Part shown: in pieces, positions 1-20,406 of the stretch
Numbering within the stretch: position 1 is the stretch's first letter
Layout: every line of letters begins with the position of its first letter
From: a virus
Length of the DNA stretch: 23,368 bases
IMG/VR virus record: IMGVR_UViG_3300021960_000534
Location: 1-23,368 of that record
Direction: 5' to 3' (one strand)
Notes under the pieces: generated by a model
Database searches by the model: none
What the model was told of the DNA's origin: nothing
The model's input: only the letters and a program-made list of their open reading frames with translations
Made by a program: the position numbers and the translations under genes

Positions 1-168
1 TAACCTTTCTTTTTCTTCTTTGAGGTATTCCAATAACAACGTGACGTATATCTGTCTCTCAAAAGGCATCATGTTTTCAAGATCACTCAGTGTATACTTA
101 TGATGCTGCATCAGTGCAAAGTTAACCTTATAGTGATTGATAAGGTTATCGTAACCGAGTGTTAGGTA
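1..168 (-). CDS. gp51: gp51-like tail-assembly chaperone segment, partial, in the -1 frame after gp26
   Basis: This reading frame starts inside the last codons of gp26 and stays open for 56 codons to the window edge, so the C-terminus is missing. It runs ...GYDNLINHYK, then HHKYTLSDLE, then MMPFERQIY, then a charged helix EYLKEEKERL. That style fits the short gp51 hub-assembly proteins of marine T4-like phages and the T-domain of tail assembly chaperones. There is no start codon near the gp26 stop. The first ATG (109-111) falls 19 codons into the conserved-looking segment and lacks a well-spaced Shine-Dalgarno sequence. The frame is exactly -1 relative to gp26 and begins at a T TTT TTT heptamer, so I infer it is made as a gp26-51 fusion by ribosomal frameshifting. 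The alternative is an independent gp51 translated from the internal ATG. Family assignment is by recall of motif style, not by search. Confidence 0.6.
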
Positions 169-881
169 AAAAAACTAGCAAGACCCTCCATATGGATAGT
201 CTCTTTCCTTTCACATTTATTACAGGTCCACTCTATGTCATGCTCTAGCTTAGGAGCATTACTGAAGAACCGCTGTACCTTTTCAAACTGTTGTTGATTT
301 AGAGATTCTAAGAAGTTCTTAATCTCATCTTTAGTGAATGTATCATATACATTTTCATTATCATAGATGCATATAACACATGAACACACAAAGTCTAACA
401 GTTGATCAAAGTTTTCATTGTTTAGATCAATGTCTCCCATCTCCATAATTTGTTTGACACCAGGAAACTGTAAACGAATACCAACTTCATCAGTTAACTG
501 TATCTTGTCACTATATTCTTCAGGGAAAGTAACATTAATTTGATCTAAGTTGACACTTACATCGACTATGTTTTTACAATCGCTGCCCTTTGGATGCTTT
601 AACCTTAGGTCTACGTTCTCTCCTACGCTCTTACCTCTTAGCTGAAGGAACAAATACTCAACATCAAACATTGCTAGCTTATCGACGTTGAAGTCATCTG
701 TTAACACACACGTCTTAATAATGTTACTAACAGCGTTAGTCATTTCCTTCTGATCACCACCTTGCAAAGCCATGAACAGAAGTTTCTCTTCCTTAACTAG
801 GAATGGTCTAAACTTAATAGTCTGCTTTGTAGATGGTACAGTGGTAGTATACTCAGGGGATTTTAATACTGGTAAAGACAT
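162..881 (-). CDS. gp26: Baseplate hub assembly protein gp26
   Basis: The 239-residue protein resembles the T4 gp26 family of baseplate-hub proteins (T4 gp26 is a little shorter). The start (S-L-P-V-L-K-S-P-E-Y) and the segment with KFRPFLVKEEKLLFMALQ (about residues 23-41) are family-like. So is the C-terminal WTCNKC knuckle (about 218-223) followed by a GLASFF tail. Only one CxxC pair is present at the C-terminus, so any metal site would need other ligands. The start is supported by a strong Shine-Dalgarno TGAGGTGA (889-896), 7 bases upstream. In T4 this gene acts in hub assembly near the tape-measure protein. The -1 continuation into a gp51-like segment makes a G/GT-like tail chaperone role likely; that is inference. 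It is the last complete gene of the leftward operon, 15 bp after the tube-like gene. Confidence 0.75.
   Translation of the reverse strand: MSLPVLKSPEYTTTVPSTKQTIKFRPFLVKEEKLLFMALQGGDQKEMTNAVSNIIKTCVLTDDFNVDKLAMFDVEYLFLQLRGKSVGENVDLRLKHPKGSDCKNIVDVSVNLDQINVTFPEEYSDKIQLTDEVGIRLQFPGVKQIMEMGDIDLNNENFDQLLDFVCSCVICIYDNENVYDTFTKDEIKNFLESLNQQQFEKVQRFFSNAPKLEHDIEWTCNKCERKETIHMEGLASFFT
168..174 (-). promoter_or_regulatory. Slippery heptamer T TTT TTT, candidate -1 frameshift site
   Basis: On the minus strand the gp26 codons read AGT TTT TTT ACC TAA. The seven Ts are in the exact X XXY YYZ register for simultaneous P- and A-site slippage. After a -1 slip translation avoids the stop at 162-164 and enters the open gp51-like frame. 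I did not identify a clear downstream pseudoknot; the segment around 120-160 can form only modest pairing by eye. Confidence 0.65.
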
Positions 882-2006: not shown

Positions 2007-2420
2007 TTAAACTTCCCAGTCGTAGTAAGGAAATTGTAAGTATTGCTTCTTCAACAGAAAGTATCCTGAGTATTGAATGTTCTTAGTATTGTTTATTCTA
2101 TAGAACATAGAGCTCTTGTTTATATCACAATGCTCAGCAGCATCGTCTATCCTTTCAAATATCATATCAGGGGTGACCCAATACCCTTTCCACTTGGCAC
2201 TCTTCTTACCCGAGCAACCTTTCCACAGAGCACTCTTCTTTGCCATCAACTCTTTTGAATAAGGATTCTTCAGTCCTTTGTTCCAAGCACGCTGCCCTTT
2301 TTGGAACCCCTGACCCCAATCACCACCCCAGTAACTTGGAAGAGGAATAGTATTTACTACTACTTTATCCCAATCTACGTTAGAGGAACAATTAAAAAGT
2401 CTATCAAGATTATCGTACAT
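2007..2420 (-). CDS. Small protein with NUMOD-type DNA-binding motifs, no nuclease domain
   Basis: The 137-residue protein carries AWNKGLK (45-51), the hallmark of NUMOD3 modules in GIY-YIG and HNH homing endonucleases. Two WKG repeats follow (ALWKG 64-68, AKWKG 75-79). Then comes a NUMOD1-like helix-turn-helix, GYWVTPDMIFERIDDAAEHC followed by DINKSSMFYRI (79-109). No GIY-YIG, HNH or other catalytic motif is visible, so it is either a DNA-binding remnant of a homing endonuclease or a domesticated regulator. I chose the ATG at 2418-2420 because it overlaps the gp4 stop as TAATG and has AGGA 6 bases upstream. An in-frame ATG at 2462 would add 14 residues but would lie 43 bases inside gp4 with a poor ribosome site. 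The N-terminal 40 residues are unrecognised. A consensus late promoter lies 86 bases upstream. Confidence 0.6.
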   Translation of the reverse strand: MYDNLDRLFNCSSNVDWDKVVVNTIPLPSYWGGDWGQGFQKGQRAWNKGLKNPYSKELMAKKSALWKGCSGKKSAKWKGYWVTPDMIFERIDDAAEHCDINKSSMFYRINNTKNIQYSGYFLLKKQYLQFPYYDWEV

Positions 2421-2857
2421 TAGATTCCTAACTCTTTCTCCGTAATGATCTGGAACTTCCATCCACGATCTTTACAGTACTGTTTAGCAGATTGCCACTT
2501 CTTACTATTTATACCGTAAGTAGCAACCTCATTCAAGTACTTTTTAGTCTTTCTGCTACGAACTGTAGGTGGTTGAGTCTGAGCATATGGCTTTACCTCG
2601 ATAAGTATAGTATCGGTATTGCCTTTTGCGGTTTTTACTTTGATAAGGAAGTCTGGAAAGTATCTATGAAGTCTACCGTCTAATGGTGATCTATAAGGTA
2701 TAACAACCTCTTCACTACACCATTGCAACACATTTGGATTGTTATCACAGTAAACCATAAACATCCTTTCCCAACTAGAGCGATAAATAATACAATCGGG
2801 ATCTCCAATGTATTTGTTACGGTTACGTGGTTTATAATATCCCTTATGTGTCTTCAT
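2420..2857 (-). CDS. gp4: Head completion protein gp4 (TnsA-like nuclease fold)
   Basis: The 145 residues match the T4 gp4 (gp50) head-completion family, which acts on filled heads before tail joining. The start MKTHKGYY, then DPDCIIYRSSWERMF, FPDFLIKV and ILIEVKPYAQ give a restriction-endonuclease-like triad: E30 (SSWE), D69 (PDF) and E87-V-K89 (EVK). This is the layout of TnsA-type nucleases. All four residues are intact, so an active nuclease, for example one trimming packaged DNA, is plausible. No clear Shine-Dalgarno precedes the ATG. The minus strand reads CCTAAATAG just upstream, resembling a weak late promoter that would give a nearly leaderless message. It is the first gene of the leftward operon and diverges from gp48 across 19 bp. 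Confidence 0.85.
   Translation of the reverse strand: MKTHKGYYKPRNRNKYIGDPDCIIYRSSWERMFMVYCDNNPNVLQWCSEEVVIPYRSPLDGRLHRYFPDFLIKVKTAKGNTDTILIEVKPYAQTQPPTVRSRKTKKYLNEVATYGINSKKWQSAKQYCKDRGWKFQIITEKELGI
2506..2513 (-). promoter_or_regulatory. T4-type late promoter TATAAATA for the leftward genes
   Basis: The minus strand reads TATAAATA exactly, the T4 late promoter consensus recognised by gp55. It lies in the 3' part of gp4, with transcription expected to begin about 6 bases beyond and to reach the NUMOD gene start (2420) and the genes after it. Confidence 0.5.
2782..2789 (+). promoter_or_regulatory. T4-type late promoter GATAAATA upstream of gp48
   Basis: GATAAATA lies 87 bases before the gp48 ATG, antisense within gp4. 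The 11-base string AGCGATAAATA here (2779-2789) is repeated exactly upstream of gp25 (8795-8805). It probably drives the rightward hub operon; the resulting leader would be antisense to the gp4 start. Confidence 0.55.
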
Positions 2858-2876: not shown

Positions 2877-3815
2877 ATGGCAGCTGAATTAGAACCAATA
2901 GAAGTTAATCCTGCGATAACCAATCAAGCATCACTGAACGATGCTTTAGGTGCTTTGCATGGAGGAAGTGATACTGTGCAGGGACTTACATTTCCATCTA
3001 ACCTTGAAAAACATTTCCTGATGTTTAAGGTTAAGAAGAGAGAGAGACAGACTCAGAAGATTGCAGCTGGTAGTCAAATAAAGAATGTAATATCACTGCC
3101 AATACCTGCTAATCTCTCAACTGGCTACAATGCAAAGTATGCTAATGCTCCTATAGGACCAGGTGGTGCACTCGCTCAAGCAGTTGCTGCAGGTGATACG
3201 AGTAGTCTCTCTTCTGTAGTAGATAGTATGAATGGAGGAGAAGAAGGTGGTGGTTTACTAGGAGCAATAAAGAATGTAGGAGCAGGTGTTGCTGAAAATC
3301 AGCTGGCAGCCATTGTTGGTGGTGTAGCTGGTGGAGCACTTAGTAAGGGAGGAACATTAGGGTCAGCTGTTGGTGCAGCTCTTGGTGACTTGGCAGGAGA
3401 TGCATTAACAGGTACATTACAGTCAGCAGGAGTCGCTCGTAACCCACACCTAGCAGTACTTTTCGAAGGTGTAGATATGAGGACTCATCAGTTCCAATAC
3501 AAGCTGATAGCACGTAATGCAGCAGAGAGTAGTACTTTAAGAGAAATCATTACTCAATTCAAATTAGCCATGGCTCCAGAATTTTCTGAAGCCAACCATT
3601 TTTTTAATTACCCAGATGAGTTTGATATAGAATTTTCCAAACCTTTGTTCTTATTCAAGATAGGAACGTCAGTATTAGTAGATTTCCAAGTAAATTACAC
3701 TGCTCAAGATGGATCACTGTTCCATTCTAACAGAGCACCACTAGCTGTAAGTATCAGTATGACATTCCAAGAATTGGATATTATTACCAAAGCAGAGATC
3801 AAAGAAGGACGATAA
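2877..3815 (+). CDS. gp48: Baseplate tail-tube cap gp48
   Basis: The 312-residue protein matches marine T4-like gp48 (T4 gp48 has 364 residues). The N-terminal segment has LTFPSNLEKHFLMFKVKKRE and VISLPIPANLSTGYNAKY (about 37-90). A glycine/alanine-rich hydrophobic middle follows (about 120-185). The C-terminal part has a tube-like fold: MRTHQFQYKLIARNAAES, FNYPDEFDIEF and APLAVSISMTFQELDIIT. In T4, gp48 sits on the hub and, with gp54, templates tail-tube polymerisation. It opens the rightward operon. AGGA (2867-2870) lies 6 bases before the ATG. It is followed 2 bp later by gp53. Confidence 0.85.
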   Translation: MAAELEPIEVNPAITNQASLNDALGALHGGSDTVQGLTFPSNLEKHFLMFKVKKRERQTQKIAAGSQIKNVISLPIPANLSTGYNAKYANAPIGPGGALAQAVAAGDTSSLSSVVDSMNGGEEGGGLLGAIKNVGAGVAENQLAAIVGGVAGGALSKGGTLGSAVGAALGDLAGDALTGTLQSAGVARNPHLAVLFEGVDMRTHQFQYKLIARNAAESSTLREIITQFKLAMAPEFSEANHFFNYPDEFDIEFSKPLFLFKIGTSVLVDFQVNYTAQDGSLFHSNRAPLAVSISMTFQELDIITKAEIKEGR

Positions 3816-14745: not shown

Positions 14746-17700
14746 ATGCCAACTGCTAACAATAATCTTTCGACAAATTTTAACGTAGATCCATACTACG
14801 ATGATTACGATGAATATAAAAACTTTCATCGAATTCTTTATCGTCCAGGATTCGCAGTACAAGCTAGAGAGTTAACTCAGCAACAATCTATTCTTCAAAA
14901 TCAAATTCATAGATTTGGTAATCACGTTTTCAAAGACGGATCGGAAATAACTGGTACTACTGAAGTACTTAACCAAGTAGGTGTGTTCAGATTAAAATCA
15001 ACCTATGGCGGTGTCGCTATCGATGTAAGCGAGCACGATAACCGTTTTGTAAGAAGCCGTAACTCAAAAGAACTTTTTAGAGTAAAAAAGACTGTTGCAG
15101 CAGCAGGCGGTGAATTTGATTTATTGTTTGTTCAGTATCTCCGTAGCGCCAACACTACTAGTGATCCTAGTGAAATTTATAACGTAGTTGCCAATAACGA
15201 GGTGCTAGATTTTAGTGCTTCGTATATCAACGCTAACAGCGTGTTTAGCTCTAACTGTGGGGCAGCTCAAATACTTTCTACAGCTCAGGGCTCATCGGTT
15301 AAGAAACCCGTTACTAGAGGCTATTTGTACTCTATTGACGACTCAATATATTATCACAAAGGGTTGTTTATCAGGACGCCAGCACAGACTGTTGTTGTTG
15401 CTGCCAACAATCAGCACGCAGTAAGTGTTGGTTTAGAATCTTCAGAAACCTTAGTTACTTCGGATGATGATACAACTCTAACAGATCCTGCAAGAGGTAG
15501 TTATAACTACGCTGCTCCTGGTGCGGATAGATTAAAAGTAGAGATGACTCTTGTAGCTAAGCCTCTTACGTCTATTGATGCACAGCTACCATTTTCTAAT
15601 AATTATGTTGAGCTTGCTAGGGTATTTAACGGTGATCTTACTCGCGTTCGTAGAGATCCTGATTACAATCTTTTGGCTGACGAGCTCGCTACTCGAACTT
15701 ATGAGGAGTCCGGAAACTATGCAGTTGAAGGTCTCAATCTTTCGGTATCTAACACTGTAGCTTCATCTTCAAACCTGGTTGCTGTATTTTCTCCTGGAAC
15801 CGCTTATGTTAAGGGCTATAGAAACAGAACCGTTGCTAGAAGGTATGTAACCTTACCTAAAGCTCGGAGCACCGATTCTGTAACAGAACAAAATATTACT
15901 GCGTTGTACGGCAACTATCTTATAGCTAACACAATATCGATTGGATTGCCTAATATTGATGATCGAGTTGAACTACATGACAATAACGTAGCAGGTCCAG
16001 GAAGCAAGATCGGTGATGCTCATATTAAAAATTTAGAGTACTTATCTGGGTCTGGAAACACCAGAAAATACAAAATCTTTTTATATGACGTTAATATAAC
16101 GAATTCAGTAAAAAACTTTAACAATGTTAGAAGTATTATTAAGGGTACTTACTCAGCTCAGACTGCATATGCTGCTGTCCATTCAGATAGTATTACAACT
16201 TTCTCGAAAACTGGTACCGTTACTTCCGGTAGCCCAACAGTTAGATTTACAAGCGCAGCAGGTATCAAGGTTGGTCAGGTAGTAACAGGAAGCAGCGTAG
16301 ACGTTGACACGAGAGTAAATTCAATATCCTTTGATGAAGTTACGTTAAGTAAAAATGCTACTGCAACAGAGGCTAATGGAACACTGATTTTCTCTAGCGT
16401 CAACTTGACTGATACTGACTTTCATAGAAGTTACTTTGCAATGCCACACGTAAACGTGGTAAACGTTGATAACGTTGATTACAAATTTAAAAGAAAGTTT
16501 GGATCTGTTAATTTTGTAAACGGTGTTGGAACAATTCAGACTTTAAGTGGAGCAGAAAGGTTCTCTTCTGGTTCTGGTGATCTGGTAAATGAAAACTTTA
16601 TAGTTGTTACGACCTCTGCAGGTGGTAGTCTTCCTGCAGGTGAAAATATTGATCTAACTGCTTCAGGACGATCAGCGGTACCTGCAGCTGCTGTACCTGG
16701 TAACCCACAATCAGCCACTATTACACTTAATGATGCCTCATTTAACGGTACAGCTGATATTATAGCATCCATAGATGTTACAGCTGACTCAAGAAGAGTT
16801 AAGACCCGAAACAGCAACCAACAAAAAACTTTAGTTGGTTATCCTGCAGTTGGTACTAAATCGTCCCTAGGTTACTCCGATGTAATTAAGATCAATGCAA
16901 TCTATGAAGGTAACACAACTTTGGTTACAAGCAACTCCACTATTGTAACCGATAAGTTTTTATTTGATAATGGTCAGAGAGATAACTTTTACGATCATGG
17001 TACTATCTCGCTTAAGCCAGGTTATAGTGCTAATTCAACTAATTTGTTGTTGGTAGATTTTGATTACTACAGTCATGGTGGTGGTTTAGGCTACTTCTGT
17101 GATAAGAGCTATCCTGACTATTCAAACATTCCTACTTACACTACTTCTACTGGTGAAGATGTATATTTAAGGGACGTGCTGGATTTCCGTCCAACTAGAA
17201 CAGCTGATGCCAGCGCCAACGTGTATAGTACTAGCAAGACGTTTGATAGCCATCAAATAGTCGACTCACAAACATTTGAAGTTGAATCCGATTACAGCTA
17301 TTATAAGAGCGTTGTACATAAGATTTCCTTAGATCACAACGGAAACTTTGTACTGGTCACAGGTACTCCAGCGTTAAACAATCCTCCGGTGCCTGAACAT
17401 AATTCAGACCATATGCTTTTGGCCACCTTCTTTATGAATCCTTACACGTATAACGAAGAGGATATGACAATAAGGTTAGAGGATAACCGTCGTTATACAA
17501 TGAGAGATATTGGAAGAATTCAAAAACGAGTTGAAAACTTAGAGTATTACACTTCTCTTAACCTACTTGAAACTCAAATACAATCTCAGCAGTTCTTAGA
17601 TAACGATGGGGAAGCGAGATTTAAAAGTGGTTTCTTGACAGACCCGTTCAGAGGTCACTCGGTTGGTGATGTTTTTAATTCTGATTACAAGGCTTCAATG

Positions 17701-20406
17701 GATCCTGTTAATCAAGTTATGAGACCAACGTTTTCCAGTGACGCTGTACCAATTGTACCGTCAACTAGCTCCTTTGCTATACGTAATGGAATAGCTACTC
17801 TTCCATATACTGAGGTTGGTTATCTAGATCAACAACTTGCTTCAGGTACCATAAATGTCAATCCATTCCAAATCTCTACATTCGTGGGTTCGCTTAAGTT
17901 AATACCTTCTCAAGATCATTGGGTTGATACAATCAACAGACCTCAAATTACAGTTAATACAAAGAATGATGTAGCGGAATACGCAGCACTTTCTAAAATT
18001 ATTGATAACAAAGGTGGATATGCTTATGGTAATTGGGAATATAATAACCTAAGTGGCCAACCTGACGAGTGGTATGAGGGAATAAGGCAGTATGTTAACT
18101 ATCAAGAATCGCAACGGCATCGATCCAAACTTTCTATAAAGACCTCTGAGAGAGTACATGATAGGCAAAGAATTAGATTAGACAGCGTAGTGCTGCCTTA
18201 TATGAGGACCCGTAAGGTAAGATTTGAAGCTACTGGTCTGAGACCAAATAAGAGACTACATGTTTTCTTTGGAGGTGAGGATATTACTCAATATGCTGCT
18301 CCGTCGACGTTTAGTTCGTCTAGGGTTGAACAGGTTCTCTACTCATCTAGTAGCAGTAAGGATATTGTAACCGATGATAATGGATCAGCAACGGGTTACT
18401 TCTGGGTTCCCAATAAAGATCAAACTTTGAGCAGATCAGCATATGATGCTAATCCAAACGCGGCTATACGTCCTAATCTGTCTAACGCTAGTAGGTCTGG
18501 TACTAAGTTCACGGCTGGTGTTGCTGAAGTAATGGTGTGTGATAATTTTATTAATCCAAATTTCTCTACAACTTTTGCATCAGAGTTTTATGGTGCTCAA
18601 GGTTCTAGGGATTCGTACCAAACTACGGCGTACACCACTAAAACATATTCACTTGCTTCACAACCAGCTGGTGTTCAACAAGGTCCTACTATTAAAACCG
18701 GTAGTTACTTTTTAAGAACGCCGACTACTTTAACTCAATTTCTGAATGACCATTTCCCTGGCCACGGTGCTGACCATACGGCCATTGCTAATCAAATAGC
18801 AAGCTGGTATGTTCAATACTTTACTAGAAGACCCGAGCAAGGTGGAATGTTTCATTGGATGGATCACTGGTTTAATAGAATGACCGAAGGCTCTGGTACA
18901 ACCTTAGCTAACACTGAAAGGTTAAACGCGCTGGATAACCATATAGTGTATGCTGGTTGGCAAAATCAAGAACCAGATATTACTGATTTGCTGAGATCAA
19001 GATATAAAGAGGTTACTGGCCTGACTGACTCTGTAGGTAGTCAGGAAGAGGTAGCTCCATCAAATGCAGATACTGGTGATACTAATAGATTTAATCAGTT
19101 GCTGGCAACTATTGGTGTTAAGAGACCTTGTGACTCAGGAATCGATCCTCTTGCTCAAACATTCAACGTGTCGCCTGAGTTTTATAGTCACGGAGTGTTT
19201 ATTACATCAGTCGACGTCTTTATTGCTCAAAAGGATACAGTGCTTCCATTGACGGTAGAGATTAGACCTACGGTAAATGGGTTCCCAAGTGCAACTGATT
19301 ATGTTCCAATGTCAAGAGTAAGCGTGAATCCTGCTCAGATAAACGCTAATGCATCTACTCCTACAGCTACAAACATTAAGTTTGATGCTCCAATTTTCTT
19401 GGCTCCTGGAGAGTATGCTATCGTGCTAAGAACAGATGCAGACCAGTATCTAACCTACATTGCAACAATAGGTGAAAATCGTTTGGATGGTACTGGGGAG
19501 ATTACACAGCAACCAACTATGGGTTCTTTGTTTAAGTCTCAGAATGCTAGAACATGGACTCCTCAACAGGATTCAGATTTGTGCTTTAAGTTATACAATG
19601 CTTCGTTTACAAAGAATGTAAACTACACATCTGTACTAGTTGCAAATAACGTTGCTCGAGCTGCATACGAGTCTAACACGGTATATGCAAACACAGTTGG
19701 TCAATATGACTTGGCCAACATTAATGTTGCAAGGTATGATAAGTTAGAGCCAGTTTTTTCTCAGTACGAAATACTTACTAAAAACCAAGGTGGATCTGTA
19801 CAGCCTTATGTAAAGGTTGAGCCAAACCAAAATATTGTATTTGATGCGTCTAAGGAAATTACTACTAATAGTGATTTGCAGGTAAAGGTTACATTTAGAA
19901 CTTCTGATTCTGATGTTTCACCTATACTTAATTTTAATTCTTCAGCAGTAACATTAGTTAAGAACATTATAAGCACAGTGCCTACAGGTAATACCTTCGT
20001 AGCAGAAACTTCTTCAAGTGGTGGTAATGCAACGGCAAGATATATTACCAGAAAGGTGAGTTTATCTAAGGATCTTTCTGCGAGAGGTTTAAAAGTATTT
20101 GTAGACCAGAATACACCTAAAGGCGCTACAGTCGAGGTTTATTATCGAGTTATAAATAATGATGACTCTACTAAGTTCGAAGAAAGACCATTTGTATTAA
20201 TGTCACGTAGACAGGCATCTGTACCTATTAGTGACGATGCCCGTCAATACACTGAGCTGGAGTATTATGCAGACGATATTACGTATACTCAAGATGGGGT
20301 TACGTATGACGAGTTTGACGCATTTGTTATCAAGATCGTAATGTATGCAACCTCTACAGCATCTGCTCCTTCCTTCCGTAACTTTAGAGCTATAGCGTTG
20401 GCATGA
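14746..20406 (+). CDS. Giant DUF4815-type baseplate or fibre-connector protein
   Basis: The 1886-residue N-terminus (TNFNVDPYYDDYDEYKNFHR, then ILYRPGFAVQARELTQQQSI, then LQNQIHRFGNHVFKDGS) is the DUF4815 signature of marine T4-like virion proteins. Residues 489-550 hold a strand domain (GTVTSGSPTVRF, AAGIKVGQVVTG, VTLSKNATATEA) often found in fibres. A helical stretch with IGRIQKRVENLEYYTSLNLL lies at about 919-945. LPYMRTRKVRFEATGLRPNK then FFGGEDIT lies at about 1150-1182. A DUF4214-like piece with WYVQYFTRRPEQGG (1354-1367) is inserted between that part and the conserved C-terminal domain with DPLAQTFNV, FITSVDVFIAQKDTVLPLTV and SQNARTW. In T4 this slot holds gp9/gp10, so a baseplate-to-fibre connector is likely; that is inference. 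The 3' end overlaps the next gene as ATGA. Confidence 0.75.
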   Translation: MPTANNNLSTNFNVDPYYDDYDEYKNFHRILYRPGFAVQARELTQQQSILQNQIHRFGNHVFKDGSEITGTTEVLNQVGVFRLKSTYGGVAIDVSEHDNRFVRSRNSKELFRVKKTVAAAGGEFDLLFVQYLRSANTTSDPSEIYNVVANNEVLDFSASYINANSVFSSNCGAAQILSTAQGSSVKKPVTRGYLYSIDDSIYYHKGLFIRTPAQTVVVAANNQHAVSVGLESSETLVTSDDDTTLTDPARGSYNYAAPGADRLKVEMTLVAKPLTSIDAQLPFSNNYVELARVFNGDLTRVRRDPDYNLLADELATRTYEESGNYAVEGLNLSVSNTVASSSNLVAVFSPGTAYVKGYRNRTVARRYVTLPKARSTDSVTEQNITALYGNYLIANTISIGLPNIDDRVELHDNNVAGPGSKIGDAHIKNLEYLSGSGNTRKYKIFLYDVNITNSVKNFNNVRSIIKGTYSAQTAYAAVHSDSITTFSKTGTVTSGSPTVRFTSAAGIKVGQVVTGSSVDVDTRVNSISFDEVTLSKNATATEANGTLIFSSVNLTDTDFHRSYFAMPHVNVVNVDNVDYKFKRKFGSVNFVNGVGTIQTLSGAERFSSGSGDLVNENFIVVTTSAGGSLPAGENIDLTASGRSAVPAAAVPGNPQSATITLNDASFNGTADIIASIDVTADSRRVKTRNSNQQKTLVGYPAVGTKSSLGYSDVIKINAIYEGNTTLVTSNSTIVTDKFLFDNGQRDNFYDHGTISLKPGYSANSTNLLLVDFDYYSHGGGLGYFCDKSYPDYSNIPTYTTSTGEDVYLRDVLDFRPTRTADASANVYSTSKTFDSHQIVDSQTFEVESDYSYYKSVVHKISLDHNGNFVLVTGTPALNNPPVPEHNSDHMLLATFFMNPYTYNEEDMTIRLEDNRRYTMRDIGRIQKRVENLEYYTSLNLLETQIQSQQFLDNDGEARFKSGFLTDPFRGHSVGDVFNSDYKASMDPVNQVMRPTFSSDAVPIVPSTSSFAIRNGIATLPYTEVGYLDQQLASGTINVNPFQISTFVGSLKLIPSQDHWVDTINRPQITVNTKNDVAEYAALSKIIDNKGGYAYGNWEYNNLSGQPDEWYEGIRQYVNYQESQRHRSKLSIKTSERVHDRQRIRLDSVVLPYMRTRKVRFEATGLRPNKRLHVFFGGEDITQYAAPSTFSSSRVEQVLYSSSSSKDIVTDDNGSATGYFWVPNKDQTLSRSAYDANPNAAIRPNLSNASRSGTKFTAGVAEVMVCDNFINPNFSTTFASEFYGAQGSRDSYQTTAYTTKTYSLASQPAGVQQGPTIKTGSYFLRTPTTLTQFLNDHFPGHGADHTAIANQIASWYVQYFTRRPEQGGMFHWMDHWFNRMTEGSGTTLANTERLNALDNHIVYAGWQNQEPDITDLLRSRYKEVTGLTDSVGSQEEVAPSNADTGDTNRFNQLLATIGVKRPCDSGIDPLAQTFNVSPEFYSHGVFITSVDVFIAQKDTVLPLTVEIRPTVNGFPSATDYVPMSRVSVNPAQINANASTPTATNIKFDAPIFLAPGEYAIVLRTDADQYLTYIATIGENRLDGTGEITQQPTMGSLFKSQNARTWTPQQDSDLCFKLYNASFTKNVNYTSVLVANNVARAAYESNTVYANTVGQYDLANINVARYDKLEPVFSQYEILTKNQGGSVQPYVKVEPNQNIVFDASKEITTNSDLQVKVTFRTSDSDVSPILNFNSSAVTLVKNIISTVPTGNTFVAETSSSGGNATARYITRKVSLSKDLSARGLKVFVDQNTPKGATVEVYYRVINNDDSTKFEERPFVLMSRRQASVPISDDARQYTELEYYADDITYTQDGVTYDEFDAFVIKIVMYATSTASAPSFRNFRAIALA
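20151..20158 (+). promoter_or_regulatory. T4-type late promoter TATAAATA ahead of the fibre genes
   Basis: TATAAATA is an exact match to the T4 late consensus. It lies inside the 3' end of the giant gene, 245 bases before the 74-residue ORF. It would let the fibre block be transcribed apart from the wedge genes. As an intragenic match in A+T-rich DNA it could be chance. Confidence 0.45.

Follow-up and report, generated by a model that had tools for sequence, protein, structure and literature searches.

A predicted -1 frameshift linking gp26 to a gp51-like segment in the tail assembly chaperone locus of an uncultured T4-like phage

The gp26 gene of an uncultured marine T4-like phage and an overlapping gp51-like segment very probably constitute one tail assembly chaperone (TAC) locus, in which a -1 slip on the heptamer T TTT TTT yields a gp26-gp51 fusion beside gp26. 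The phage is represented by IMGVR_UViG_3300021960_000534, an IMG/VR virus fragment of 23,368 bases (hereafter, the window) that carries a T4-like set of tail and baseplate genes. A previous sequence-only reading had proposed that this locus is laid out like lambda G/GT. The present analysis supports such a layout, with a short chaperone, a -1 slip site, a C-terminal extension and then a tape measure gene, and shows it to be deeply conserved.

Results

The gp26 protein (TAC-N; 239 aa) is encoded on the minus strand at 162..881 and was identified by its matches to PHROG 150, 'baseplate hub' (E 5.5e-66), and Pfam PF12322, T4_baseplate (E 1e-61); its AlphaFold model has a pLDDT of 92. The gene ends GGT CTT GCT AGT TTT TTT ACC TAA, with the TAA stop at 164..162 (-). 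One codon before this stop lies the slippery heptamer T TTT TTT (168..174, minus strand), which was read directly from the sequence. Since the TTT codons occupy 173-171 and 170-168 (-), the heptamer stands in the in-frame X XXY YYZ register, which fits tandem -1 slippage. An in-register heptamer within AGT TTT TTT ACC TAA, as the sequence-only reading had described it, was thus confirmed at 174..168 (-). When the sequence was read in the -1 frame from the heptamer, it continued as TAC CTA ACA CTC... (YLTLGYDNLINHYKVNFALMQHHKYTLSDLENMMPFERQIYV...), and 56 codons remained open up to the left edge of the window. This gp51-like C-terminal segment (TAC-C; 1..168, minus strand), which begins YLTLGYDNLINHYKVNFALMQHHKYTLSDLENMMPFERQIY, matched PHROG 634, 'baseplate hub assembly catalyst' (gp51), with an E of 5.4e-24, in agreement with the proposed gp51-like frame of at least 56 codons, and the joint F-F-Y-L-T-L predicted for the -1 product proved to be correct. 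In addition, gp26 aligned with positions 5-233 of PHROG 150 and the -1 segment with positions 238-281, and therefore both pieces follow one another in order along a single profile, across the joint.

Extension of the window to the left, which had been suggested as a check on the -1 frame, was made possible by contig L006 (IMGVR_UViG_3300021959_005147), which shares 3,151 nt with the window at 100% identity and reaches 1.5 kb beyond its edge. In this contig the -1 frame is complete (L006:2984-3169) and closes after 61 codons. The gp51 stop is overlapped (ATGA) by an ORF at L006:3166..4671 with an open frame of 502 residues, incomplete at the contig end, which matched the tape measure families PHROG 305 (E 6e-7) and PHROG 4372 (E 3.5e-6). 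In the annotation of phage Cr30, the tape measure gene lies two genes downstream of gp51. The order gp26, (-1) gp51, tape measure is the layout of lambda G, GT and H.

Several other features of the window were recorded. Gene direction diverges at 2857-2877, with gp4, the end protector, a tail-tube-like protein and gp26 running leftward, and the baseplate genes for the tube cap, a gp53-like protein, gp25, gp6 and a gp8-like protein running rightward. An ORF of 151 aa (2007-2462, minus strand) is flanked by the genes for gp4 (head closure) and the DNA end protector; it overlaps gp4 by 43 nt and contains NKG-type repeats. By eye it resembles the remnant of a homing endonuclease (NUMOD), and searches with it gave zero Pfam matches and, among the PHROGs, only a weak match of unknown function. 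A protein of 1,886 aa with a DUF4815 domain is encoded at 14746-20406 (+), amid baseplate and fibre genes.

The conservation of the junction was assessed in homologous loci from viral contigs and isolate phages, which gave 194 junctions in 121 clusters at 70% amino-acid identity. The loci from viral contigs were the best-scoring relatives, picked by similarity; the sample is therefore uneven, and the breadth of the survey rests mainly on the isolates. An in-frame TTTTTTN was observed near the gp26 stop in 120 of the 121 clusters (final base C in 68, T in 43, A in 8 and G in 1), as the junction alignment called for by the sequence-only reading would have it, and usually one codon before the stop. 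TTTTTTH was present at the junction in 119 of the 121 clusters, with TTTTTTG in one more; TTTTTTG is the form seen in the isolate RL2RES. In all 180 loci that could be located by profile, the frame of gp51 was shifted by -1 from that of gp26 and an in-frame TTTTTT[T/C/A] lay in the overlap; the -1 frame was likewise found in the 14 isolate phages checked. The hosts of heptamer-bearing phages include cyanobacteria, Methylophilales, Rhizobiales, Caulobacter, Stenotrophomonas, Pseudomonas, Vibrio, Aeromonas and Cronobacter, and the isolates include P-SSM2, Syn1, ACG-2014j/b, Melnitz-1, phiM19, Cr30, Moby, S13, ORM_20, D490, Aswh_1, ValKK3, V07 and Milchi. By comparison, in the 28,326 codons that make up the rest of the gp26 genes TTTTTTH occurred in frame 16 times, and the slippery motif was used by 8 of the 118 other Phe-Phe pairs in gp26. 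In the main ORFs of the window, TTTTTTH was found in frame twice in 7,354 codons; the other in-frame TTTTTTT, at codon 241 of a baseplate tail-tube-cap (gp48-like) gene at 2877-3815 (+), is probably due to chance.

Conceivably, a sequencing error or the decay of a gene could have split a single frame into two, and homopolymers are indeed prone to error. However, the break was at the identical position in 194 loci, isolates included, the independent contig L006 was identical to the window, and the -1 segment was strongly conserved as protein, so that the probability of an artefact or of decay is negligible.

The sole junction type without the heptamer among the 121 clusters was that of the Vibrio phages K475 and K393 (ACG CTT TTT GCG TAATG at L192:2190-2405 and TCA CTT TTC AAG TAATGG at L200:2190-2450), in which CTTTTT or CTTTTC is followed by an ATG right at the stop. 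These phages may use re-initiation or single-tRNA slippage. No relatives of the K475 type were found in the viral contigs searched.

In the -1 frame of the window, no ATG, GTG or TTG was present between the slip site and codon 20. The ribosome site of the ATG at codon 20 is weak (-3.2 kcal/mol, versus -9.9 for the start of gp26 itself), and a start at this position would lose conserved residues, which bore out the earlier claim that gp51 has no usable start nearby. The same applied to the clusters: when ribosome sites were scored by duplex energy over the first 24 codons of the -1 frame, no ATG with such a site was found in 116 of 120 clusters, whereas 78% of gp26 starts had one. Many GenBank records nevertheless present gp51 as a separate small protein, which would be made by termination-coupled re-initiation just past the gp26 stop. 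In accordance with this idea, an ATG was among the first nine -1 codons in 34 of the 120 clusters, and a TAATG start is annotated in the ValKK3 and D490 records. We nonetheless consider re-initiation a highly unlikely source of gp51, as ATG, GTG and TTG were all lacking there in 60 of the 120 clusters, while a ribosome site accompanied just one of the 34 early ATGs and the residues ahead of the later ATGs were conserved. Furthermore, re-initiation leaves the invariant in-frame heptamer unexplained, and T TTT TTY is retained even in phages with TAATG, such as ValKK3, D490, Cr30 and Moby. Given the early ATG in 34 clusters and only a GTG or TTG in 26 more, some lineages could make additional free gp51 by coupled re-initiation, which may contribute in those with TAATG.

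The annotation of this region varied between records. In GenBank, the gp51 segment is absent for ACG-2014j, S13, Aswh_1 and ORM_20, begun at various internal codons for Syn1, Milchi and Melnitz-1, and begun at TAATG for ValKK3, Moby and Cr30. A gp26-gp51 join was annotated in none of the 18 annotated phage records carrying the pair, and most protein databases and proteomic searches therefore probably lack the fusion.

Upstream of the heptamer we found a probable stimulator of the predicted slip, a Shine-Dalgarno (SD)-like GGAGGG at 184..189 (-) that ends 9 nt before it. Across the 120 clusters, complementarity to the anti-Shine-Dalgarno sequence peaked 6-10 nt before the heptamer and was enriched over within-gene shuffles of synonymous codons (z about -10). 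In 105 of the 120 clusters the SD-like core was 4 nt or longer, and it mostly lay 8-9 nt from the heptamer. Codon usage at the site was also informative: the GAG:GAA ratio was 45:31, versus 695:1983 elsewhere (p 2.8e-9), and purine-ending Gly codons gave a p of 1.3e-4. Because the SD-like element is too distant from any start beyond the gp26 stop to act as its ribosome site, the natural reading would be that it acts in slipping, as in dnaX. The fixed spacing of the element, which points to the ribosome, also bears on the possibility that the RNA polymerase slips on the T run and produces mixed mRNAs, some of which would join both frames. A homopolymer run like this one resembles known sites of transcriptional slippage, but it comprises only 6 T in 76 of the 120 clusters and reaches 9 in only one, and such slippage does not need the fixed reading register that was seen. 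Transcriptional slippage is therefore extremely unlikely to account for the locus.

A possible stem-loop downstream of the heptamer (124..147, minus strand; stem AACCTTAT...ATAAGGTT) is a tentative candidate for a second stimulator. The fold had a z of -3.3 in the window, and a hairpin was also predicted in P-SSM2, Cr30 and ValKK3. A universal downstream hairpin was rejected: there was a signal on average, with a mean z across clusters of -0.96 (at +6 nt), but since only 23% of the clusters fell below a z of -2, we do not claim the hairpin as conserved.

The proposal that gp26 and gp51 of T4-like phages form a G/GT pair does not extend to every such phage: T4 and IME13 encode the two proteins in separate genes, one on each strand. 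T4 gp51 is a free-standing protein of 249 aa, complete with its N- and C-terminal parts. T4 gp26 keeps a Phe-Phe pair near its end, coded TTC TTT after a G and thus without a slippery site, and the -1 frame of T4 gene 26 contained no gp51 segment. In the phage of the window gp51 is not encoded as a full-length separate gene; what follows gp26, in the -1 frame, is the C-terminal segment alone. The homology of the fusion to T4 gp51 was evident when a profile of 114 predicted fusions was aligned with T4 gp51, as the alignment ran across the joint from residue 15 to 244 (E 1.5e-13). Pfam T4_baseplate covers residues 1-201 of T4 gp51 (E 3.9e-52). This profile was needed to see the relation: BLASTP between the fusion and T4 gp51 was not significant, and hhalign returned local matches only, at low probability. 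Since the fusion profile aligns end to end with T4 gp51, T4 appears to hard-code the product made here by predicted frameshifting, and on this alignment we regard T4 gp51 as the fixed-gene counterpart of the frameshift product.

Structural models were compared as well. The model of a T4-type gp51 showed an order of secondary structure elements similar to that of gp26 plus three C-terminal helices, and a fold search with it returned models of the gp26 family. The best matches of the gp26 model among predicted viral proteins were other T4-like baseplate hub (gp26) proteins. A sequence search of the PDB with profiles of gp26 and T4-type gp51 found no relative, and Foldseek found no significant PDB match for the gp26 model (pLDDT 92). 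The best PDB entry by probability was 2OB9, the HK97 tail assembly chaperone (probability 0.80, TMt 0.51), the next distinct protein having a probability of 0.30; because its E was 0.78, the likeness of the gp26 model to the HK97 chaperone fold is suggestive only.

Discussion

We infer that slipping occurs at this locus, and in a small share of the ribosomes. Most ribosomes would stop at the gp26 TAA and release TAC-N, the short form of the chaperone. The internal SD-like GGAGGG 9 nt upstream, and perhaps also the downstream hairpin, would make a minority pause, move back by one base on T TTT TTT and continue in the gp51 frame, to give a gp26-gp51 fusion of 299 residues (TAC-NC). By analogy with lambda gpG/gpGT, the product of the adjacent tape measure gene may be coated by both TAC-N and TAC-NC, the C-terminal extension may recruit tail tube subunits, and neither form would stay in the virion.

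In lambda, the slip takes place on another heptamer, GGGAAAG. As in lambda, a short chaperone and its -1-extended form are encoded here just before the tape measure gene. The two systems differ in that gp26 is larger; the chaperone whose fold was compared here is that of HK97. A parallel for the signal is the -1 frameshift of E. coli dnaX, where an internal SD-like element lies about 10 nt upstream of the slippery heptamer, A AAA AAG, and acts together with a strong hairpin. Such a strong hairpin is not general in the TAC genes of T4-like phages. It is possible, if somewhat short of probable, that phages from those of cyanobacteria to those of Vibrio share a compound dnaX-type signal in which slipping on U UUU UUH is stimulated by a conserved SD-like element located 8-9 nt ahead of it, that this part is previously undescribed, and that T4 itself, by contrast, carries the frameshift product hard-coded in one gene (gp51).

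Vladimirov, Gautam and Davidson are said to have identified the tail assembly chaperones of T4-like phages in 2022 (Virology 566:9-15), and according to their abstract several groups of T4-like phages reportedly conserve the frameshift, T4 itself relying on genes 26 and 51. The genes concerned are the same, gp26 and gp51, and the window adds a new uncultured member. Two later papers cite Vladimirov et al. 2022: one describes poly-T slippery sites in TAC-N genes from T4-like phages (PMC12846349), and the other states that in some T4-like phages a short and a long TAC gene are separate (PMC10885494). The TAC of Vandenendeviridae and Andersonviridae, as described in PMC12846349, is similar in that a -1 shift on a T-rich site ending TAC-N had been missed by annotation, but it has the core motif GTTTTT instead of T TTT TTY and belongs to other phage families.

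A frameshifted TAC in T4-like phages was thus already described in 2022, and the phage studied here is a well-supported further case; the SD-like element and a survey of this size may be additions. The signal is near-invariant, which would make a simple reporter test easy. In a 2010 paper (PMC3037559), cyanophage and marine vibriophage gp51 is noted to lack about 200 N-terminal residues; gp51 would appear 'truncated' to this extent because the missing part is gp26, joined to it by the predicted frameshifting. A 2016 review (PMC5009743) describes wide conservation of G-T frameshifting 'except T4', a statement that holds for T4 itself, whose separate genes 26 and 51 encode homologues of the proteins studied here, and not for its wider relatives.
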